The notes under the pieces are model-generated. The model saw only the letters and a program-made list of their open reading frames with translations, was not told where the DNA came from and searched no databases. From Phorcus lineatus (taxonomy: Eukaryota; Mollusca; Gastropoda; Trochida; Trochidae), in contig OV121082.1 of assembly GCA_921293015.1 (NCBI GenBank), positions 46,210,971 through 46,274,970 on the forward strand: a stretch of DNA of 64,000 nucleotides. The letters run 5' to 3'. Position 1 is the stretch's first letter. Every line of letters begins with the position of its first letter. The position numbers and the translations under genes are program-made. This document shows positions 3,901 to 55,332 of this stretch, piece by piece.

Positions 3901-4691
3901 GCATTTTTTAGACTAAGGAAATACCAACTCTGTTGATTTATTGTAACTTTTTAATGCTAACATGCTTGTTGCATCTCTGTGATTAAAAAAATAAATCTAT
4001 AGAAATTGAATTTATATTTCATCATCATACCAAGTCTTAAATGATACTCAAAAGAAATACTCAGCTATTCTAAGTTTGGAGTGACCAATAAGCAGAGAGC
4101 CCACCCCTACACAGCCTGTGTAAGTGGGTAGAGTATATCACATAGCCAATCTGTTAGTTTGACCGATGTCCAGCAGGGTTTACATAGCAGGTGACCTTGT
4201 AGTGGTCAGTAGGAAAGCATAGACATAGACAATGTCCTTATTCTTCTCAACTTGTAAAATTCAATTCTAAGATTTGTAACATTATGATTCACTGATCATC
4301 ATGTGTTTACAAGGAGTTTCATATAGCCTTTATCATTAGTAAAAGAAAGATTTATGCATTTCAACATTTACGGGCATTTAAAGATTCCAGATCCTAAACA
4401 ACAAATGAAAGCGCATCCTAGATTGGCAATTTTGAAAGTGTTGGCAGTCTATGACCTTTGAAAGGAGAGATATATAAGGGTTAAATTTCAAAATGTCTTA
4501 TTCCCATAATGATAGTTAAAGTTATGGGCTTGAAAAGAACAATGAATTGATGCATAATCGATTGTGCTGAAGAAAATGGCTTGAGAGTGATCTCCCTTGG
4601 ATGCTGTTCCCCTGACCACTAGCTAAAGTCAGGTGGTTAATATCCCTGCGGACATGTCATGGACACCACATACATGAGGACCTTAACATGA

Positions 4692-6984: not shown

Positions 6985-9900
6985 CTGTTGAACAGAGACA
7001 TTGTCATTGTTATGATTAATGGCGGAATGGCAGGTATGTCAGGTTGCAATGAAAAGACAACTACTAAAGAACACCATAAAATATTACAAATATTCTGGTG
7101 TAAGAATCTAAAAGGGATGACTAAAGGTTGATTACAAAGAGGTAGTTCCAAGTGGGGTAAGGCGCATTCAGGGGGTTTGAATCACCCGCTTTTGATAAGT
7201 TTCATACTTAAATTGAATTGAAGTTGATCTGCTACTGGTACAAATGCTGGTGATTGACAGCTCTTTGTATATTTTTATAGTAATACACAAAAAGACGTAA
7301 GACAATGAATAAACCTTTTTTCATTTAACATGTTAGATGCCTCAACTACTTTAACATAAATTTCTAATATTATCAATGATGTAGTACTGATGACAAGTCA
7401 TGAGAAGCTAAACAGATAAAGGAAATCTGTAATAATCTACCAGCTATAGCAATCAGCATCTTCCGTCTAGCTCCGAATGTGGAGATTCCCAGCTCACGAA
7501 GGTCACGATCGGTCAGAGTCAGGAACGTTGAAAGGTCAATCTGCAAAATTATCGACTTACAAATAAAACTTGGTTTTGGTTTCTTTGTTTTAGGTCATGA
7601 AGAAGGACAGAATGAAAAAATTCTGCATATAAATTGGTTTAGAAATCAACACACTTAGATGATTCTCTGTAACAAGGTTTAACTATCTGGGCCTTGATTT
7701 TCGAAGCTTTCTTAGTGCTAAGATAGTCATAGGCCAATGCTAATTGATGGTACTAACGACTATCTTAGCGCTAAGAGAGCTTTGAAAATCTAGGCCCTGG
7801 TGTCTGTGTATTCATTATCGTAGGTTGTGACCAAGTTTGATGACTAAGACTGAAACAGGTCATGCAATATCGTGATAACAAAGAGTTTGAAAAGCAGTCA
7901 AAGTGCCATGTTGACCTTGAAAATATAGTCAAGGTCACCAAAATCCAATGAAGTCTGCAGATTCACCTAAGGTACACTGTGACCAATTTTGATGACTCTG
8001 CCTACAACAGGTCATGCGACAATGCCTACAACAGGTCATGCAACAATGCATAAAAATAATCCGAAAGTATGTAAGTACAGATGCTGGTGAATACAATGTC
8101 CCCCGTTCTGCATTGAGGTGGGGTACAAAAATAACACCCAATTATGATCATCGTTTAAACCAACAATACATTCACACATCAAAGACCAAAGACCAAATCA
8201 ATTTTCCCTTTTGAAAACCCATTTAGTGACCCTGTCAACACTCAGGGCGAAACCGCATTAGTGGTGGTTGGCCCTTTTGCAAGGGAAATAACTCGTGCGG
8301 TTCATCTAGAAGCTAACCAATTTGGTTTCGAATCCCTGCTATAAAGTCCGATATCTATGATTCTAATTTGCCGATCTTTTCATAAAATATTACTTATTAT
8401 TATTTCCCATCAAGATAAGATTGTCTCAAATGTGGTCCCCCTTCTTTCGCTCCTTATAGAGGCCGTAACGATGGGGACCACATTTCTTACGAGACAGTTT
8501 TTGAAGCTTAATAACTTTAAACGTATTATGTAATGCCCCCACATTGTATTTGAGGATCAAGTACGACATTATTTAAATAAATAAGTACACTATGGGAACT
8601 ATTCTACGAAGTAATGTGGATCCAAGTTATTTTTGGCCGACTGAGAGAAGGACGATCGTGTACACAGCCATAGCAACGAGCAGGGCTTTCTCATTGGTCA
8701 AAAGAAGGTCAGGTCAGGGATCATGGATCATCCGTGTACGTTCATTGGTTGATGCATTTGATACAAGGTCAGGACAAAGTTGCGATGGAGCGTGGTTTCC
8801 ATCTACGATTGAGACTAGACAAAAGTTCGCCCACATTTCAAATATGAAACAAAAACCATCAGAATCTGTTTCTACCAGTGTAAAAGAAAATGCAGTTCAG
8901 GACTTTTTAAAGTGTTGATGGAAACATCTCAATAAAATCCAAAACCATGCTATCATGTTTTCTTAAAATTCAATTGATTTAATTGTTTTGTTCCCCTCAA
9001 TATGAAATTTTTTTTTTTTTTATCTTAACATGTTAGAATCCACATTTTCTGTATCAAAATCATGATTTTATAGTTTTTAAAAATGTGGGCCCCCTAATTT
9101 TGTGGCATGTAGGTGACTGATAAAAGAGGGCCCACATTTAAGATATTAAACAAAACGCACTAGCTGTTTATAAATACCAGTGTTCCCCATTATATAAGAA
9201 AATGCAGTGAAGGATTTTTTAATTGTTGATGGAAATATCTCAATAAAATCAAGCAGGTAAGATTTCATCGAACTAATCATTTAATATAAGTTCTCAAATA
9301 CCTTTCTTGTTTTCTTAAATTCAATTAATTTAACAGTTTTGTTCCCCTCAAAATCAAAAATAATAATTTAAAATTCTTAACATTTTAGAATTCATATTTT
9401 CTCTATTGGCATCATGATTTGATGCTTTTTTTAAATGTGGTCCCCCTATTTTTTTTCTTTATAGTAGAATGACAAGAGGGACCACATTTGAAATATTACA
9501 CAAAAACATCAAGATTACAGTGTTCCCCATTATATAAGAAAATGCAGTTAAGGATTTTTTAATTGTTGATGGAAATATCTCAATAAAATCAAGCAGGTAA
9601 GATTTCATCAAACTAATCATTTAATATAAGTTCTCAAATACCTTTCTTGTTTTCTTAAATTCGATTAATTTAACAGTTTTGTTCCCCTCAAAATCAAAAA
9701 TAAAAATTTAAAATTCTCAACATTTTAGAATTCATATTTTCTCTATTTACATCATGATTTGATGCTTTTTTTAAATGTGGTCCCCCTATTTTTTTTCTTT
9801 ATAGTAGAGTGACAAGAGGGACCACATTTGAAATATTACACAAAAACATCAAGATTAAAATCTGTTAATTAATATCAGTACATGATTTCATGGGTTTTTA

Positions 9901-12900
9901 AAATGTGGGCCCTCTTAGTTTGTCGCTTATAGGAGATTGACAACAGAGGGCCCACATTTGAAATATTACACTAACATAAATATTAGAATCTAATTCATAC
10001 AAGCCTAGTCCAAAAGATGCAGATCTTCCTTCTTAAATGTTGATGGGAAAATATTTATAACGACAGGAAGAAAATGTTTAAATTAATTTAAAAAAATAAA
10101 ACTTAAGGGCACCTGTTCATTAGTATTTTTCTTATACTAGTGTTGACCACTTTTTGACTTCCAGTTTAATATTAAAATTACATTTGTTTGATTTCTTGAA
10201 ATGAGGCCCCCGGGGCTTGTCATCATTATAGTACAATGATATGCATATGAAGTCAGTGGGTCCACGTACACTACAGTCTTTTAATATGAAGCCGATATTC
10301 TTTGACAAACTAACAATTATCGGAACGTACCTGTTTATTTATTGATTTTCAACAACAAAAATGCGTCAAAGCTTTGAGACAACATACCTCCCGACCACGC
10401 GAGCGCGAATACGTAAACAAACCGATAGCTCTGCATACTGGATTCGACTTTGGAGTTACTTCCCTTGAAAAACGGCAAACCACCACTAATGCGGTTTCGC
10501 CACACTCAGCATCAATGGTTTTATAAAATAGAACAAAGAACGCACCTCTTGTTGCTGGAAGAGATCGGTGTACTTGCCCAGCCCCATCTTGCTGAAGAGT
10601 TCCGCCAGGTCTGTCTTCGGGGACCAGAGATTCTTGGGTGGGAGTGCAGACGCACTGTCTACATGGTTGCTGCTGCTCAGACCAAACTCATCTGTGTAAA
10701 TTCAAGTATGGTTTAATTCAGAAAATGAACCAGAGGAGGAATTACACGGCATTATACAAAGGCCATATTATTGTTTGGATCATATCCTCTTCCACTACGA
10801 TTCATAAAACTTTCAAGAAGGCCTAAGTCCCTTACCACAAAACACTTATAATTGGTTGAGAGGCTACAATCGATTATAACCAATGACAAAAACATTGCCT
10901 ACAATTGATCGTAACTCTACAACTACTTTGTGGAACTGGGCCATGGTGAAGGGGATAAGGTGGTGGTAGAGTCAGTGCTGGTGACTGTTGCATAACTTTG
11001 AGGGTGTGGATTTAATTTTGCTTTATCCGTAAAAGTGCGTAAAAAATGTTCACTGACAGATAATGTGAACCAAAATATAACAATATAACTTTTTATAGTC
11101 ATAATTCTCTGATAACCAGACCCTAACATAAATGAACTCCTTCCAGTAACATCAAACAATTGAAAGGAAACACAGTGCCTTTGAATAGCGTAACTAAATA
11201 TTGGCTCTATACAATAGTTTCCAATGAATCAATGAATGTACAAACAAATGAATATTCTGACAAGTCTCAGCAGTGATAACACAATAGCACCTACATTTCT
11301 TGCGAGGACTTGGGTATTCTCCAGGAGCCTTGTTGATGGGTGCATTAGCACTGCATGGGTTCTTCCATGGGTCGTGGTCAATGTCCTGGGAGAAGTCTGC
11401 TTGCTGCTCTGGGGTCTGTTCATTGGTGAATTACACAACTTGATTAAATCACAAATCCTACACTAATGAACATTCATAGTTTGAATAGGCAGATAAATAA
11501 GATACTTGATATACAAGAGTCTATCAATACATTCTGTTGTAAGAATTGTTAACTTGTAAGAAACATATCATTCATTTTGACTTGTTGAATTGCAGTTCAT
11601 TTGCTGAGGAATAGAGGGATGCATGGGTACCATTTTAATTTTTGAGGGTGGTTCACATGATATCCTTCTTAAATGAGGTATGACTATATTGGATTTTCAC
11701 CTCTAAGAAGCTAGTAAAAAAATACATCTACAGGCCGTTTATAGGCCTGTAGGGGTGAAAGGGTTACAGAATGGACCCACCTCAAAGGTTGTGGACATTG
11801 CGGGCCCCATGTACCGACTGCCTGCTCCTAGCTGGCTCATGCGTTCCTTGATAGCAGACTCTGGCATGGATTTCGAAAAACCCATGCCAGCCCAAATGTC
11901 TGTCGGTATTCGAGATTCGCCCTCTGGCTTCTTTTGCATAGCTGTGGATGGAAATTACAAGGATATAGCAGATTTTTCATTTGATTCCCTCCTAACAGAC
12001 CTATTTCTGGATTTCAAAAAACCCATGCCAGCACAAATGTCTGTCGGTATTCGAGATTCGCCCTCTGGCTTCTTTTGCATAGCTGTGGATGGAAATTACA
12101 AGGATACAGCAGATTTTGAATTTGATTCCCTCCAAACAGACCTCTTTCTAGATGATTTCAGATAGGAAAAGTTGCAAAAGTAATCAGAAATTATTATTAT
12201 TATGGCTTCTGGGATTTTGAACAAACTTAATGTCTATACATTGCAAGACTTGTGACAGTTAGAGAAGAGATGGTAAGTTTTTCTTTCTTCCAAAAGGGTT
12301 CTGTAGATTGATTTCACCTTCAATTGGCAATAAAACATTGATATATGTCAAACAGTTGTTGGATCCCCAAAACATAGGAAAGAAAAACAGTTTGATATGG
12401 TTTATGAATTACACATGGAATTATTTTATCAGTAAGTGTGTCACATTATTTAGTATAAAATCAAGCTCAGGTAAAACATAATCTTCCATAAAAGAAACTT
12501 TGAATTTCTTTTCATCTGTCATTTATCATGTCCTTTATCTACCGAAGCACTCAACATTATAAGTTATTTTTCAAGAAATACCAAGTATTACCTTTCATGG
12601 CCAGGAGTTTCCGCTGCTCATAGTCAAAGCCATACTGTACTTGTGCATTAAAGAGTAATGTTGCAGAGTTCTTGCGTTCAATGCCAGGAGCTCGTTTGTC
12701 TGAACTGTCGGACTCCGCCCCTGAAGAGTCTGATGTCTGAGTCTCAACATGGCCATTTCTACAGAGAGAAAGAATAATTTCTTAAACTTCACAGGAATGA
12801 TTTCAATGTACTCAGTTCGTCATTATTGAGATTGCTTTCTTGAAATAAATCACATTTAGAAATTTAACCTTTGCCTTAGTGTATATTGTCTCCACATATT

Positions 12901-24900: not shown

Positions 24901-27900
24901 TCACCTTTGACAAATTTTGAACTGACCAATAAAATGAGTGTAGGATTTCAGCTTTCAGCCAACCAAAGGTGAGATTCTTTAGCATTTTTGTTACATTTGT
25001 CAATATTTATCCTTAAAGGTAGTTTACAACAACTAGATTGTTGAAAAGGAAGGGGTTGGTGATTAGGGCTTAAACTAATCAATGGGGGCATGAGAAGCTT
25101 TTGTCCTACGCTCCAATATCCAGCGTAATTCGGCTGATCTTAAATTTAAATTTGTATCTTGGTAAACAAACAGTAATATTTATCTTATGTCATAAACATA
25201 GTATCTGATATCCCGTACATACTAAATGTATTTACAGCAATGTATTTCTATAAAACGAAGCCTTTGTTCAATTTCTAAACAATACAATTCAAAACATAAA
25301 GACTGAAACACAAGCAGCCCTAAAATTTCATGCTGTTCATTTCAATCCAAATGCTGAAAATTAACCATCTGTGTTATGATGCACCGCTCAGATATGGCTG
25401 ATGCAATTGGAATATTTGCACAAGGGATATCAAACCCTTTTTGTGGTTGACGTCATCTACTTGTCAGATTTAACAAATGATTTCACAGTAAATGAGGAAT
25501 GAACCTTCGTATCCTAACTTTATTAATTTAAAAAAAAACCACAGATACTTATTGAAACAGATATCAAATTCATGAAATATTGTTTCATTAAATACATTCA
25601 TGTCTAATTGGTTTGTCATTTTCAAGCACCTGCAAGAATGAGTGGAGGAATGCTGTAAGATGAAATAACAAGATGCATGCTGGTAAAAGTGACCCACATC
25701 AAACTACACCTATTTGTCTAGACTAAAATTTAGTCTATGAAAAATATTGATAATTTACTGTTCCTTCATCCAAAATATTTTTTTCTTTGGGCTCCTAATT
25801 TCATGAATCTAGACTTGCTGAATGTGGACCTAGACTGTATAAAAGGCTCCTTTATATACACAGTCATGAAGCAGGACTACTATTTGTCCTCTACTGACAG
25901 ATTCTGTTTCTAAAATGCGAGTGATTAATTAGGTGCAGGTGCAAAACTTGAAATCAAACTCCTGGGAATAAAACCTCATCATTTGTGTTTAGAATACCTT
26001 CCCATAGAAAAACAGAAGTAAAGTTCAACTCCTAATGCAGGAACTGTGGATGGCTGCAGAAAGGGTATCAGTTCTCATGCTCTGTGATGAAGGGTAAATG
26101 TGTACATGTCAGTCATACTAGAAGTGTACACTTTACTTGTAAATTTTGTGAAGTAACTCTGACAATCGTGTCAGTTTCCTGACAAAACCTGCAGACATGC
26201 TTCTCAACTGAGACGATGGCTATCTCTAGAACTAGTACCTCTTCTTTATATAACATTGAGAACTAAGGAATTACCGGGCAATTATCTCAACATGTTGGTG
26301 ATAGATAGCATGTTTGTCTACATAAAGAACAGAACATTTCTATATCTTTCACCTTAAGGTTACATCTATCAACGCATTTATGTATTATCTAGAAGTACCT
26401 TTGCCAAGAAATCTACAAACGGAAATGATTAGGAGGTTTTCTTGAAACACTCAACCCCCTTGGGAGCATACAACCTGTTAAAAGCAATTCAAGATGTTCA
26501 TTTGACTAGGAGAGATAAGGCAAACAACCTCACAAAATCTCTAGAAAAAAACCAGTTCTGATTAAACCATAGGAAAACAATTCCAAGCTTCAATAGACTG
26601 GCCAATAAAATCGCAGATATTTGACATTTTCTAAATTACCCTCGCATTTATCACTAAGGAAAGCAGATATCCCTGACGAAAGAAGATCTTCACTTCAATC
26701 AATTGTAGTAGCCTGAGAGTTTTTCAACCCTAAACAAACACTGACAGGCAATCTGAATTTCAGCGAGGAGCACACCATTCTTTGAAGATGGAGGAGGCAG
26801 ATTTGTGCCTCCATTACTTCACCTTCTGATAATATCTTCCATTACAATTTCTTGCCTAAAATAACCTGGTTATCTCCCCTTTCCATGTGTAATTATCCCA
26901 GCCTTCAGGACATTCCTGTCTTGGTGCGCTTGTACAAGAATTTGTTACAATTCTTGGAATACTTCTTCACAGATGCTGTATTGTAACATCTAGTTCTTCA
27001 AATGAAGAGATCTTTTGTGATTGGACCATTGGTACAGAGTTATTTTTATAATTATAAGTTTCCCTAACTATAACACTTGAATACCCTCAAACTTCTTTCG
27101 ATCTCTGTTCTTACACAAGAAGACGATGGCGAGTTGTTTCAGTGTTAAAAAAATATTTCATTTTCATCGACGCGGCCTGCGTTAATGCTTGCTGATATCC
27201 TGTAAGGCCAGTATGATTTTATCTTGCATTAACACAAGCCACTGACTGGAACCAGTGGTGGTATTGCAGGGAATAATAGTGTACTGTGCTTAACCCTCAG
27301 GAGCATGAGTAAACATTGTTTCAAGAGGAGTCAGTTGTAACAGTAATGCATGACAAGTTGAATCATTCTACATACCTTGCTTGGCTGTTTAGGTTTAGGT
27401 TTCACACTGATAAACACGTCCAGCTGTTCGGTCAGTTGTTGGACGCGGCCTGAAACATAGATGCAGTCTATGAAAGTAACACAAACATATACATGTCTAT
27501 CATTCATGTAATTCAGAACAGAAACATCTCAAACGACGATCTTAACAAATTACTGAAGTCTATTCATCAATTTATCATAAAATCTGACCAATTTGACTCC
27601 TTTTAAGCACTTGAATATGTAATGACTGCCATGCAAGCAACATGATATTCATGTAAAACCACTATCTTTGAAGCTAAGTTGTGAATCGGACATGAGTTTG
27701 TATTTATCTATATATGTAACTGTATCGAAGCGGCCTTGATATAAGTTCTTTGGAGCTTGTTGGCCAATCCAATCATGTATATATATATCATGAATAAATA
27801 TGTTTAAATCAGAATAGAAACCTTTCTGCATGTAGAACAGTGCTCTCCTACAGACAAAATTGCACAGCCCCTGGCAGGATTCGAACCCAGTGCCACATGA

Positions 27901-30900
27901 TCCAAAGCCAAACATGCTAACCACTGTGCTATCAAAGCCCCTGTTCTTGTTAGAACATGTGCTCTTGTATGTATTGTGAGGATTGTGAGGAACTATGGCT
28001 AAGACACTTCAAGGGATGGAAGTTGTTTTGTTTCTGATTGGCACTGGGCACAATGTAGGTAGTACAACTTATGTGTAACAGTGTCTGGCACTATGAAACA
28101 GTTTCAAAAGGATGAATGTCACAAACATTTATAAGCCTACAGCAACAGTTCTAAAATTTAATGCGTTAATAAAAAGTCATGATGGTCTAGTGAAATAAAT
28201 ATCTCTTAAAAAATGCCATTAATTAAAATTGCAAAATATACATTCGTTTTTAAAGTTATTACTCAATCATATGAATTTTTTGCATGGAAGTTACATCATT
28301 GTGATGAAATTAACATGCATCTTAGAAACCAATACAGGATTTTATTTGATTATTTTGTAAACATACAGTTGTTATCAAAAAATTAAAAAACATTTTTTAT
28401 TACAACATAAGTAATTACCAAAAAGGTGAAAAATAATTTGATACATTTTCATCAAGAATTATGTCACAACATGAACCCTCAACATTTTTTCATCAGCTGT
28501 TTTTATTTATTCCAGGGTGTGTAAAAAATGATTTAGTAAAACAGCCCTGACACAACAATTACCATACGCTACATCAACAATCCTAAAAGCTCTGTTCTCA
28601 AGAGCTCAACTGATAAAGCTCTAATTACCCATTGAAACAGCAAGTGGCATACATTTTTTTTCAACGTGGCAAAAACACCAACAATTAATTCTTTGTACTA
28701 CACAGGCAATATCTCAACTCATAAAACTTTATGCTCCAACCTAAGCCCTCTGCCATTGTTTTTAGACTGCTGGTGGCAAGGTGCCCACTTAGCTCTCAGA
28801 GGTAGTTTTTCAGAGCTGAGAGATAAGCATACACGGTGTCTACTGTTTAATTGCAACAGCCTCTGCATCAATCTCAATTAAATTCAGGGTTTTTGTATCG
28901 CGATGTAGATGATTCCATACTCTCCCATAGTCTTTTTCTGGGTTTGGGTGATCATCTCTCGTAGATTAGATAGGGAGTCTATTGTCAACTTGGAGATCAA
29001 CACAAATTCTATTTATTCAACTAATGAGGGAACTAGAATTTGAGAAATTCCTAGTGTGCTTTATTTGTAGTCAGACGAAATGTAAGTGTTCATGTTCGAA
29101 ATGCAATAGTTTATTATTTCATATTATTCAGTAAACTCTATCAAAGCATCAATTTTCCACTTAGTCTGGGTTTGAGTGATCAGCTTTCATAATTATTAGA
29201 TAGTGAAGTCAATCATCAACCGGGAGATCAACTAATATTTAACTAATGAGGGAAACTAGATCTTTCAGAAATTTCTAATGTGCTTTCTTTGTAGTCTGAG
29301 AAAGTGCAAGTCTTCATGTTGGAGATGTTTTTTACTTTATTTTTATCACATTCTAAACTCTATCAAAGCATTTCAAGGATTAGTTTTGTTAGGGCGATCA
29401 GCTCTTGTAGATTAGATAGAGAAGCCTATTGTCATACAGGAAATACATGTATTCTAAAAAAATATACATGTGCTTTCTTTATTTTTTTGGGAGAAAATGT
29501 TGGTTTAAAGCAGCATCTACCCAGACTAATCATTGAAAGTCAATGATATCTAAAAGCATGTTTGAAAAAGCATAATCGTTTATGTTCCAGACACTTTTAA
29601 TGTTTTCGTTTATCACGTGCTTCAGTTAACCCAATCAATATTTCATCTCTGCTCTTTGTCATGTGATCATGATTTTATGTGGATGATGATTAGTTACTTG
29701 TACAATGGTTACATGGAATAGATGAGATGTAAACACATTGTCAACACATTGGGAAATAAAAAAGAAACATAGAAATATTTTATCTCTTTGTAAGAAAACA
29801 GATAACATTTAAGAATCATCAAGTATGGTTATATATATCAGATTCTCTTTGAAAGTTCTCTATACATGTATATATTACCTACCTTGGTCTAAATCAATGT
29901 CTTCTTTCACATCAAACATTAGAACCAAGGGCAGACAACCCTGCAAGTAGAGAACAATTTGATGAAATGCAGGACAGTGGAATGACTCAACATGAAATGG
30001 CTCAGGATCTATAGTAGAAAAACTAACATGGTACATATGTATCTTGACACAACATATAATTACTAGATGTCCATAAATGTCAAAAACAGGGCACCATGTG
30101 GATAAACATCCCAGCAGGCAATCTGACGTTCTATCAACGTTGAAACGACGTCGTTTAGCAACGTTGAAATAACGTTGAAATTTGATTGGATTTGAAATTT
30201 GCGGCGACGTCGAAAACCGACGTGATTTCAACGTCGGTTCAACGTTGAAGCCAAGACGTTGTATTGACGTTGAAAAAACGTCATTTCGACGTCAAGTCTT
30301 GTTGATTAATCAGGTTGTGTTGTTTAGTTTTGTTAATTTACTTGAAGCAATGCATTAATTATCTGTGAGGCTACGCTTTCAAATTCAGCTCTTTTATAGG
30401 CCTTGGTGCAAGACTTTGATGGCTGCTCGTGAGGAGTTATCCATTTAATGGAAATTACATAAGTTGTGAGGGTATTACTGTTTATATGACACTGCAACGA
30501 TTTAGACCAAAGTGTCACGAAAAAAATGTTTTTTAAAAATGCGTAAATGCCGTTTTGTAAGAACTACTAACTTTATTCAAATGGAAAATTTATGTTGTCA
30601 GTTGTGAACATAACTGAAAAAATCAAAACTGTTGAAAAATACCATATACCTTGTTTATTCTAATGAGACATAGGGCAGAGTTACTTCCCTTTGTTGTGAA
30701 ATTGAAAGAAATTAACTTTTATTTATCTAATTCCAATATCAATAACACTTTTAAATGTCAATGATAGCTGTTTGTTTTTGCATTTTTTATTTCATTCTTT
30801 AAAACAATCCGTAACGTATTTGATGTTATTAATAATAATGAAATTTTATAAAAGTAATCACTTTTCAGTTTAAAGTTGTTCTGATGACGTTGAAACAACG

Positions 30901-33900
30901 TCAAAACACCAACCGAATTTCAACGTCAGGGAACTAACGTTGTTCCGACGTCGAAAATTGGTTGATCGACGTCCTGACCTTAATTCAACCAAATTTTGAC
31001 GTCAAAATGACGTCAGATGCCTGCTGGGATAGCATAGGGTGATGCAGATGTGGTCAGCCTTGGGTTCAAAGACTATTTACTGAAGCTAGAAGACAATTTT
31101 ATCATTCAAATCAATAGCAAACTGATCCAGAACAAAAACTCCTCTTTCATGTGGAGATTTATGAGTCTGTGAGGCAGAGGAAGTTCTTCTGACAGACCAC
31201 TTTAATCCTTCAATTAATCTTACCAACTGAAGTTGACCATAGAATGTGCCCGATGGCATTTTACCATTAGGTGTCACTGGGTGAAAAACATATAAGAATA
31301 TGATTTTTAGATAAGAAGAGGGGGAACAATCAACAATGAAAGCCAAAGAATGTTTTAATGTCCATCAAAGGTTTCATTTTGGGTGCCTGTCCCCAACTTT
31401 CATCATACTTCATTTGTTTTTACATATTTTATCAAAAAAAGAGAATTGAACTGGCAAAACTTTCTATGTGGCTTTCAGGAGAAATGAATCCAAAACCTTT
31501 GTATCAAAGTTTTGGTCATGGGATTTTGGGGTCATGGGGTCATATCAATCCTTGAGATCCGACAAGGATGACACTTGACCACGTTTACCAAAACAGGCTC
31601 ATTATAATATGACAGTCACATGACTGCAATGACTACACAAGGTTTTGATGCTGAAGCTGGGATATCCTGTGACTAACACATGACAATATTTCTGGACTCA
31701 CAATGAGTTGTTGGCGTGCGAGGTACACACTCTCGATGCTGCCTGTGATGTAAACGGTGCCTTTGCGTTGCGGTGTGGCGGTGTTAGGGTCGGGGAAGTG
31801 GATGTTAGCGCCAGTGCGTTGCATGATCTGTTTGATGTTGATGCCACCCCGGCCAATGATGAACAAGTGGTGCTGAGGGGCGATCTCCAACTGCATGCTC
31901 ACCGCCAATGTGTTCTGTACGCAAAGGAATTAAATATAGGCAATGAAAACATTAAATTCATTCTGTATTAGTAAGAGTAAAATATATAGTAAATCTGTAT
32001 AGCTCTTAATTCATACTTATAGGATGATCGAAGCCCTCAACATAGACCAAAAAATCAACTTAGATATTTCATAGAAATGCTATTGTGTTTTGTAAGCAAA
32101 GAATATATTTCAATTTGGCATGAAAATGTTACTTTCATATCCCAAAGTGAAATTTGTCAAGGTATTCTTAAGGGGACTAAAAGATTGAACTCTGTGATCA
32201 AATTGAACTCTGTGATCACATTGATCTCTGTGAGCACATTAAATGAGTTTCCTCAGAATGTGATATGCAAGAAAAGTACTCCATCCATAAAACAAATCAA
32301 CATGTCAACTAACTGACCACATCAATCCACTGATGTAGAAGCTATTGTTACCATAAATAACTAAGCATAAATCACATATGACAAAAAAAATTCTCATTCT
32401 TACCTTAAATATTAGAACTGTAAACAAGGGAAATAAGATTCTTCTTGTGTTGCTTTCATGCTGTTTTGAATAAACTATTGGCCAAGATACCTTAAATTAA
32501 CACTATTGATAAAAGGACCACCAAAATTCACCCACAAGATTGTAAATCATACGAATCTCCCATAAATCACTGAAACACTTAACGCAAAGAGATACAACAT
32601 GCAAAAATAATTGTTATTTACATAACTAGGAAAACATGTTTTCCTTAATGCCTTCAAAACACTGTAAGAAGTAAATCTTCATCAATATCTATATGATAAA
32701 GCACATATGCACATCACAGACCACCAACAAACAAATATACACTGGCCCAAGCTTCTGCTCAATCGGAATCATGGTTTTAACCAACAATTTGGTTCTTTAC
32801 ATTAATTTGTGTTTCAACCAGTGCTAAGTCCCCATTTTTTGTAAAAATATTTTATAGTCTTGACTGACAGGGACTTGAGGTGCTTAAAAGGGCAGTACCA
32901 TGTTTTTTGATTTATTTCTTCAAATTTTCCCAATTTAAAACAATCTTATATATCATTCTTTAAATTAAAATGAATGTTTATGCCACATGTATTATCTTCA
33001 TATCAAAATATCTAAATCCTCAACCTGATCATAATTGTCTTTGAGGAGATAATCAAATATCAAGCAAAAATCACTGGCGGCCATGTTTTTGTTAACACCT
33101 TTTAATCATTTGAGGTAGGGAAAGATTCACACAGCTTAGCCAATTATGGTATGTTTCTATAGAAATTGCTTCTTTAGATTAAAAAACTTTGTCTTTCAAA
33201 TGGAATCTTTTATTTTATTTTGTTAGATCACTTTATTTATCAAAAATAACATGCTACTGTCGCTTTAAATGAGCAAGCTCTTTTCATATTCCACAGACCT
33301 TTAAGACCTGTTACATTTAGTTTATACAAATCTTACCAGTCGCTATGCTTGCTCCCTACTATTACAACTGGCCCCATCTGAATGTAAACTGCAGTGGCTA
33401 ACAGAACAGCTGTTATTTCAAACACTGCACATTATGTAATGCACAAAATGTAAAAAAATGCTTGGAAATGGTGTCATTTTGTTTAATTTTGGAAGAGTGC
33501 ACATTTCAAACATATACAATAAAACCATACCAGATTCCCATTCAAAAACTCTGTTGAAAAGTTTTTATAAATCAATATGTTTGTAGATAATACTTGATCA
33601 TGATTAAATGAAATTAAGATGAAAAAGTGTTGATTTAACCATGCTTATTCATTTTGTTTATGATTCAAACTTATGTAATTGTTCATGAAAAATAAAGTTG
33701 CAAAGTTATTCATATTGGGAAAGACTTTGTTGAAAATCATTTATGCAATTCCTAATGTGATAACCAACTAAAATTTTATTAGCCATTTAAAAACAGATTC
33801 GATCAGGAATGTATTATTCTTTTTCTGAACAACTTTTTCCATTGCACACCATGTTGATATATACCATTGAAATAACAAGACTAAGCTTTAGATTTACCAA

Positions 33901-42900: not shown

Positions 42901-45900
42901 TAGTTTTGATCTTGGCATCATCTTAATAGAGGTTTTCTAGATGTGGAACAGTGTCCTGTCACTTGACTAGAAACTAGGTCACGATATGCTTTTCTATTTA
43001 GTTTTAAATCTTGACATATTCAGAATAGAGGTCTGAAAGATCTGGAATAGTGTCATGTCTTCATAATAGAAAATAGGTAATGATATGCTTTTTGATCGAG
43101 TTTTCAATCTTGACATATTCTGAATAGAGCTGAGAGAGTTCTGGAATAGTGTCATGTCTCAAGACTAGAAAATAGGTAATGATATGCTTATCTATCTAAT
43201 TTCAATCTTGACATATTCTGAATATAGAGGTCAGAGAGATCTGGAATAGTGTCATGTCTTATCGATTGAAATTTTTGGTAAAATTTTGCCAAAATTTGCA
43301 GCAGTGTCCTATTATTATTATAGATCTTTTGTCAAACCAGATTGTATCAGATTGACTGGAAGTGATTTAGAGATTTGTGATGAATAGAGATTTTTGAGTA
43401 ATTGAAGGTGTTAATAAATCTAAGAAAAGACTTGGGGTCACTACTAGTCAATCTGATACATTATAGGGAATAGTATGATTATCAATTAGGATTTAATTTT
43501 GGCATTATCTTCATAGATGGTTCCAAGAATAGGCACAGCATAGTGTCATTTGACTAGAAATTAGGGCTTTAAATATCTAAGATAGGTAGTGATTATGCTT
43601 ATCAATTTGATTTCTAATTGTGGCATCTTCCCATCAGGTGAGAGATTGAATGTGTTAATAAATTTCGGAAAACACTTTTGGTCATTACTAGTCAATCAGA
43701 TACAATCTTGATTGACAAACTCAGACATAAATGTATGTGAATACTTCACAGACGTTGACTAATTAGTGCTAGTTTAACAGAGATAGAACCCAAAGGAACC
43801 ACATAATTTAATGAAGAAAGGGAATACATGACATAAGTTATACAAATGACCTTTTTTATTTTTCATACCGATCTATCACATGAACACGGTTGCCACATAA
43901 AGGAAGAAAATAATCTGATTATTTCAAATTTGTTTTTTAAAACATGGACAAATTGCCCTCTTTGTGTGACTCTGTAACAACTCTTGAAAATTTGGAACAT
44001 CCATGACACATTTCTATTATTGCTACCTTTTTTCAAAGAACCATGGACCAAACAGAGCCTCTCATCCCTCCTCCCATGTCTCAGGCCTTAATGACTAAAT
44101 GGCAGCCTAAGGGTTAACAATATTGCTCATGCACATACCTGGTTACTCTTCTCGTAGACGCTGCTGCCCCTGTTGGAGTCGGGGAAGTGGATGTGACAGC
44201 CGGTGTCCTGCATCACACGCTTGATGTTGTTGCCTCCCTTGCCAATCACGTGGGAGTGGTCTGTATGTGACACGTCCATTTTCAGTGTCACACGGTTGCT
44301 CTGCAATTATAGTGATCATAATTTTTACCCTTCATGTTTCAAAAACATTTTATATCTAGTTTTTATCTTGGTATTCTAAGACGTTTTAGAGTAAGTATTT
44401 CGGAAATGGCCCTGTTAAAGGTCTTGCGTTGTATACCATAAGACAAAGTCTCAAGTCTAACCACAGACCTGCTACTCAGCCAAACCCAAATACCTAATTA
44501 ATAACAATTTTTTAATGAAAATCTTGACATGCATGCTTGACTTGCATGAAAGTAGAGAGTTGATTTTCAGAGTTCCAAGGATAGCATGATTTTAAAGGTG
44601 CCAGAATGATTTTGATAACCCTAGACAGGAACAAAAACTTGTCTTCACTTAGGCATATATTGGTAACAAATAAAGTGTGTATTGTCAGTCTGATTAAAAT
44701 CGACCCTGTTCCGAGGAATAAAAGTTTCAAAATATTGGCTATACCAAGATTCGAACTCTATCTGTCAAGGGTATCCTCTCCACAACGGTCTGATCGCAGC
44801 CTCACTGCTCGCACGTGCTGACACCAGTTTAGCGCAGACGAAACCTAGTTATTAGCAAACCAATAACATCATCGCGTTTAAAATAAGAAGAGCGGCGATC
44901 AAGGTTAACAAATGGTAAATGGGAGTTATTTGCCCCTAGCTACTGATACTGAATGCTTTTGCCGCACGCATTGTGATTGGTAAGCTGAGTTTACATAAGA
45001 ATGTGTGCTACTGTAGGCTGCGGTCAGACCGCTGTGGAGAGGATAGCCTAGACAGATAGAGTTCGAATCTCGGTATAGTCAATATTTTGAAACTTTTATT
45101 CCTCGGAACACGGTCGATTTTAATCAGACTGGTGTATTGTTTTCCTAATTTTAGGAAGAATTCATCATGAGAAGCAGTGATGTGTTGAGATAAGGTGAGT
45201 TTTGAGTTGTTGTGGTGCTGTGTAATGTGGCGAGGAATTGTGAGATATTGGGAGGTTTTGTGAGGTCAGGTACGGAAGTCGTGATTTTGTGATTTGTGAT
45301 GAGACGTAACTTGGTGTGGTGCAGAATGGGTTGACGTGATGTCATGTAGTATGGCATGGTGTATGTTGTGGTATGGCGAAATGAAGCGTGGTGTGATGTG
45401 GCATGATGAGGTGAGATTGTGGTGTGGTGTGGTGAGGGAAAGGGTGATAAAGCTAGATGCTGTGAGGTAAGACAAGGTATGTAGTGTGGTTTGGTCCATC
45501 GTGGTGGTGAGTGAGGTGAGGTGTTATGTTGTGTTGTTTAGTATGGTGTGGTTTGATGTTGTTACTAATGGCTATGTGTGGTATGGTGTGGTATTGTGTG
45601 GCATTGTGTGTTGAGGTTTGTCATGATGAGGCCAGGTGTCTCAAGGTATTGTGAGGTTTGTCATGATGAGGCCAGGCGTCTCCAGGTTAGTGAGGTTTAT
45701 CATGATGAGGCCAGGTGTCTCCAGGTATAGTGAGGTTTGTCATGTTGAGGCCAGGTGTCTCCAGGTATTGTGAGGTTTGTCATGATGAGGCCAGGTGTCT
45801 CCAGGTATAGTGAGGTTTGTCATGGTGAGGCCAGGTGTCTCCAGGTATAGTGAGGTTTGTCATGGTGAGGTCAGGTGTCTCCAGGTATTGTGAGGTTTGT

Positions 45901-55192: not shown

Positions 55193-55332
55193 ATTATTAC
55201 CCGAGGAAGTGTGTCATATGACTTTTACGAAATGAGTGTGAATTTTTGTATTACCCGAGCGAGAGCGAGGGTTATACACAAGTTCGCACGAGTTTCGTAA
55301 AAGTCATATGACACATTTCCGAGGGTTATAAT
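55193..55332. mobile_element. Foldback element, ~140 bp, with CRE-like pair beside it
   Basis: ATTATTACCCGAGGAAGTGT then GTCATATGACTTTTACGAAA folds onto GTTTCGTAAAAGTCATATGA then CACATTTCCGAGGGTTATAAT. The stem continues inward (GAGTGTGAATTTTTGTAT.. with ..ATACACAAGTTCGCAC). It may be the left end of a longer element, since GGGTAATAAT recurs at about 55547-55556. Two TGACGTCA sites (55407-55414, 55430-55437) follow. Confidence 0.7.

Follow-up and report, generated by a model that had tools for sequence, protein, structure and literature searches.

A hairpin array within a putative Merlin-type transposon in a BICC1 intron of Phorcus lineatus

Introduction

Merlin transposons are recognized by target-site duplications of 8 or 9 bp and by inverted ends, 24 to 462 bp long, with a conserved terminal GG (PMC8101967). 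The available text of the same report describes several Merlin families with internal tandem repeats, and in one family, Sy.m_F1, the repeat region is duplicated in opposite orientation (PMC8101967). A comparable layout occurs in Tetris of Drosophila virilis, which, in the portion of the report available, makes 8–10-bp duplications, carries ~220-bp internal tandem repeats, and has no conserved ORF; its authors suggest a Mutator affiliation (PMC4079207). Satellite-like arrays are also described on non-autonomous mobile elements of Crassostrea gigas, the Helentrons (PMC7492417). Non-coding transposons with satellite-like cores are already known, and the hairpin array described here, with arms better kept than their loops, adds slightly to them.

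The array lies within a 2256-bp element found in a 64,000-nucleotide stretch of Phorcus lineatus DNA, referred to below as the window; all positions are counted from its first letter.

Results

The element occupies positions 8246–10501 of the window and is bounded by two identical copies (8/8) of the 8-bp sequence ACACTCAG, at 8238–8245 and 10502–10509, in agreement with the perfect duplication proposed in the original prediction. The left terminal inverted repeat (8246–8294, plus strand) begins GGCGAAACC, ends in AAGGGAAATAACTC, and pairs with the right one (10453–10501, minus strand). The inverted ends that had been predicted are thus present, but not at their proposed length of ~55 bp: each measures 49 nt, with 92% complementarity overall and perfect complementarity over the outer 24 nt. 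Both tips read GGCGAAACC, so that the element terminates in 5’-GG. A scan of the window for inverted ends that are perfect over 12 bp or more, lie 60–10,000 bp apart, and are flanked by direct repeats of 5–11 bp yielded three candidates, at 8246–10501, 44686–45131, and 55221–55304. The element described here has the longest perfect run at its ends (24, vs 20 and 12), and duplications of at least 8 bp accompany two of the three candidates but appear in none of 20 dinucleotide-preserving shuffles. No second copy was detected in the 64-kb window: the outermost 19 bases of the end have no other site within 3 mismatches, and when the window was searched with the element by blastn, matches outside it were 27 bp or less.

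The candidate at 44686–45131 is a second, shorter element with terminal inverted repeats; it spans 446 bp, its 117-nt ends start CAGTCTGATT and are 94% complementary, and a perfect 9-bp duplication, GTGTATTGT, lies on either side. By eye, its arms carry TTCGAA-type stretches resembling a tRNA B box. A similar likeness is seen by eye just inside the left end of the main element, where GGTTTCGAATCC at 8323–8335 resembles, with one extra base, the tRNA B box consensus; ARAGORN reports no tRNA at this position. It does report a tRNA-Gln (ttg) at 27865–27940 on the minus strand, which is perhaps a tRNA-derived repeat, but none of the Rfam families attains its gathering score anywhere in the window. 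The motif AAGGGARRTAACTC, with which each end closes on its inner side, has eight matches in the window at up to 2 mismatches, two of which are the ends that supplied the pattern. The other six lie at 4585, 4713, 4766, 16742, 18218, and 30678 (exact at 30678 only), compared with 1.46 expected and a maximum of 5 in 100 shuffles. The stretch 30880–31020 is, by eye, rich in repeated ACGTC/GACGT words.

The host intron, 3005 bp long, splits the SAM domain of a minus-strand BICC1 gene. The first SAM half is encoded by an exon that ends at 10546 (10546–10620, minus strand; donor GT at 10545–10544) and continues upstream, 10620 being only the limit of the printed stretch. The exon encoding the second half starts at 7540 (7442–7540, minus strand; acceptor AG at 7541–7542), and 7442 marks where the 33 residues used stop rather than a mapped splice site. 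When joined, the two halves match the BICC1 SAM domain best (4rqm, E 2.9e-26), followed by ANKS3 (5.2e-14), and they match Pfam SAM_1 with an E value of 1.9e-14; the first half alone scores 16.8 bits, under the curated cut-off of 20.5. The splice sites and the match of the joined halves bear out the predicted location in the SAM-splitting intron. Base counts likewise agree with the predicted spacing, since 44 bases (10502–10545) separate the edge of the element from the exon for the first SAM half, 36 of them beyond the target duplication. By coordinate arithmetic, removal of the element and one duplication (2264 bp) leaves 741 of the 3005 bp. Beside the element, 7999–8049 contains a short tandem repeat of 2.1 copies of 24 bp.

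Units of 128–340 bp make up the interior, in an array that has partly decayed; of seven alignable hairpin positions, five are intact and two decayed. At its center are two 340-bp units in tandem on the plus strand (9178–9517 and 9518–9857; Tandem Repeats Finder period 340, 97% matches) that contain hairpins H4 (9433–9489, fold z -4.7) and H5 (9773–9829, z -5.0). They are followed by a shortened plus-strand unit of ~128 bp (9858–9985) with hairpin H6 (9901–9959, z -7.2), detected at a period of 128 with 1.9 copies and 79% matches over 9753–9991, and by a degenerate plus-strand unit (10029–10290; family D6, 67% to its reference) in which alignment places the decayed hairpin H7 (10190–10290, z +0.3). 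To the left lie H1 (8428–8485; z -6.8 for 8415–8500, 0 of 200 shuffles as good), the decayed H2 (8790–8865), whose right arm is kept and left arm degenerate in the alignment, and H3 (9081–9139, z -3.7), an aligned G-C variant. Related, more diverged partial units flank the central 340-bp pair on both sides, and the tandem units with matching hairpins named in the original prediction are recovered here as two 340-bp units 97% alike and five intact hairpins.

With DNA parameters, the stretches containing H1, H3, H4, H5, and H6 each fold better than all 200 of their own shuffles (z -3.7 to -7.2). Folding at H2 is at chance level, with 21 of 200 shuffles as good for 8800–8860 and 28 of 200 for 8785–8860, as it is at H7 (111 of 200) and in two control stretches between hairpins (196 and 153 of 200). 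The hairpin arms are 15–22 nt long and separated by 14–29 nt. The idea that the ends gave rise to internal transposase-binding repeats finds no support: the ends match the interior no better than shuffled ends do, with 93 and 182 of 200 shuffles scoring at least as high.

The arms are better preserved between units than the sequence around them. The main comparison used H1, H3, H4, and H6, without H5, a near-copy of H4, and without the decayed H2 and H7, and gap columns were dropped. Pairwise identity is 91% in arms (163/180), 57% in loops (91/159), and 52% in flanks (327/624), values to be read with the bias toward arms that restriction to intact hairpins brings and with arm-anchored alignments that may depress flank identity. 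Columns identical in all four hairpins number 25 of 30 in arms, 8 of 26 in loops, and 25 of 100 in flanks (Fisher p of 1.0e-4 for arms vs loops and 1.2e-8 for arms vs flanks); among H3, H4, and H6 only, the counts are 27/30, 13/27, and 51/102. With H2 and H7 added and H5 alone left out, identity is 78% in arms (320/410), 52% in loops (202/390), and 51% in flanks (179/349). Two comparisons with H4 speak against preferential arm conservation: H7 shows no arm excess over the loop (21/30 vs 19/27), and the short flanks of H2 (13/16 and 16/22) are kept as well as its arms or better.

Covariation in the arms is weak. Two of the 15 pairs have changed on both sides, 12 are invariant, and one departs only by an unpaired cell; this pair number is reached in 268 of 500 shuffles and the covariation score in 39 of 500. 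Sliding the partner lowers the paired cells from 94.7% to 30–57%, a contrast measured on a structure derived from the same sequences. As proof of a structure, covariation is weak here; five hairpins, one of them a near-duplicate, are too few.

Coding content was assessed by a Pfam scan, at curated cut-offs, of 16 of the 41 listed stop-to-stop ORFs in the element and its borders. No transposase or transposase remnant was found among these 16 ORFs, as the original prediction had it, and none has a Pfam match at the curated cut-off. Besides SAM, the weak matches are to DUF5994, ODP, and DUF5932, which are unrelated families and include no transposase. The whole element has no blastn match in phages or plasmids at E 1e-5. 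Exact pieces of the ends have none in viral contigs (20-mer and 18-mer) or in genome contigs (20-mer and 19-mer). A pattern for the hairpin arms, which finds H4, H5, and H6 in the window, has no match in viral contigs. These misses say little because the collections are prokaryotic, viral, or plasmid rather than animal genomes. In the literature, searches with variants of the end motif returned, by title, nothing on mollusc repeats, and those combining the tip GGCGAAACC with transposition terms returned, by title, nothing on such an element; for internal hairpins in elements of this sort, one review was listed.

Discussion

The affiliation of the element can be approached through its ends. At this single insertion, the structural features of Merlin are all found, namely GG tips, 49-bp ends (92% complementary) that fall within the published 24–462 bp, and an 8-bp duplication, and the interior tandem repeats also have counterparts in several Merlin families (PMC8101967). 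We consider the chances about even that the element belongs among the non-autonomous DNA transposons that move by cut-and-paste, is of the Merlin (IS1016-like) type, and has an interior grown by tandem duplication. We write Merlin-type in preference to Merlin because the defining DDE_Tnp_IS1595 transposase, which an autonomous partner with the same ends might also supply, was not found in the 16 ORFs scanned. The element also differs from the described families in having a hairpin in each unit; the word ‘hairpin’ occurs 0 times in the full text of PMC8101967. On their own, tips of two letters and a duplication of 8 bp carry little weight. Weighing against Merlin are the absence of a transposase or remnant from the 16 ORFs scanned, the single copy within the 64-kb window and the composition of mollusc and bivalve libraries, which makes Merlin a rare choice for a mollusc host: in the available part of that survey, the curated library holds 3 Merlin elements vs 133 hAT, 39 Mutator-like, and 332 TcMar, Merlin accounts for 63 of 14,275 ORF-based elements, and it is almost restricted to cephalopods in automatic libraries (PMC10294476).

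A rather unlikely alternative is an origin among Mutator-like (MULE) or foldback-type elements, again non-autonomous and with tandem repeats inside, an affiliation also proposed for Tetris. Mutator-like duplications are 8–11 bp, most often 9, and the 8-bp duplication here lies inside this range without being typical of it. In favor of this reading, the second element in the window, with its 9-bp duplication and 117-nt ends, may represent another such system; against it, no Mutator protein remnant was found in the 16 ORFs scanned. In the account of Tetris available, its layout is related to the present one, so a Mutator assignment is possible: both appear non-autonomous, with duplications in the 8–10-bp range and tandemly repeated interior units a few hundred bases long, which in Tetris are able to seed satellites (PMC4079207). 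The Tetris repeats, however, sit within its inverted repeats (PMC4079207), whereas the units here lie between short 49-bp ends that resemble the interior no more than shuffled ends do. Abundance points toward Mutator, given the 39 to 3 ratio in the curated library (PMC10294476), and the same library places hAT second only to TcMar. The presence of ACACTCAG on both sides would also suit a hAT, P, Novosib, or Zisupton-type element of atypical form and with unusual tips, or a superfamily that is truly undescribed, although we regard this group of readings as improbable. Elements of hAT, P, Novosib, and Zisupton all make 8-bp duplications, but hAT tips are of the CA/TA type. The GG tips here are of another kind, as the original prediction had recognized, and the CAG that precedes the left tip is part of the duplication rather than of the ends, with no matching CTG at the right end. 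The proposal of an undescribed family that came with that prediction is weakened, as GG tips with an 8-bp duplication are a published Merlin signature in the available text of PMC8101967.

The Helentrons offer a further comparison. They are rolling-circle elements not known to have such inverted ends or an 8-bp duplication, both of which the present element has. The likeness lies in the satellite-like arrays on non-autonomous mobile elements (PMC7492417).

On the Merlin-type reading, the element would depend on a transposase produced at another genomic site; this enzyme would recognize the 49-bp ends, cut the element out, and reinsert it through an 8-bp staggered cut. A unit of at most 340 bp with one palindrome would have been copied in tandem to yield the interior, the tandem structure itself being observed, and the 97% likeness of the central pair together with the greater divergence of the outer units suggests stepwise duplication with a recent last step. 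Within BICC1, the element is most likely a passenger that has lengthened the intron from ~741 bp (by arithmetic) to 3005 bp, and its location there is incidental.

The conserved arms are the unexplained part of the element. Their likeness between units may stem from use by the element, as a binding site or as a structure, or from palindromes converting each other. A bolder version, to which we give little credence, is that the array is functional in the element: the palindrome would be an internal recognition or folding site, selected and tandemly multiplied, and the transposon lineage would evolve its own hairpin satellite, raising mobility or making hairpin RNA. It is very improbable that the hairpins are instead a host-relevant RNA feature outside the transposon mechanism, for example precursors of small RNAs that the BICC1 intron would express. 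Arm and spacer lengths would suit such precursors, as would arms better kept than loops, and of 14 weak matches to Rfam within the element, 13 are to microRNA models. All of these fall under their gathering scores, as does every Rfam match in the 64-kb window, and they are spread over many unrelated microRNA families on both strands, as would be expected of general hairpins.

If the element is of Merlin type, it would add to that group a non-autonomous form built around a satellite-like core, and would represent a stage on the path from transposon to satellite DNA proposed in the available texts of PMC8101967 and PMC4079207. The arms, kept beside faster-changing loops, provide a concrete candidate site for binding by a transposase or a host factor.
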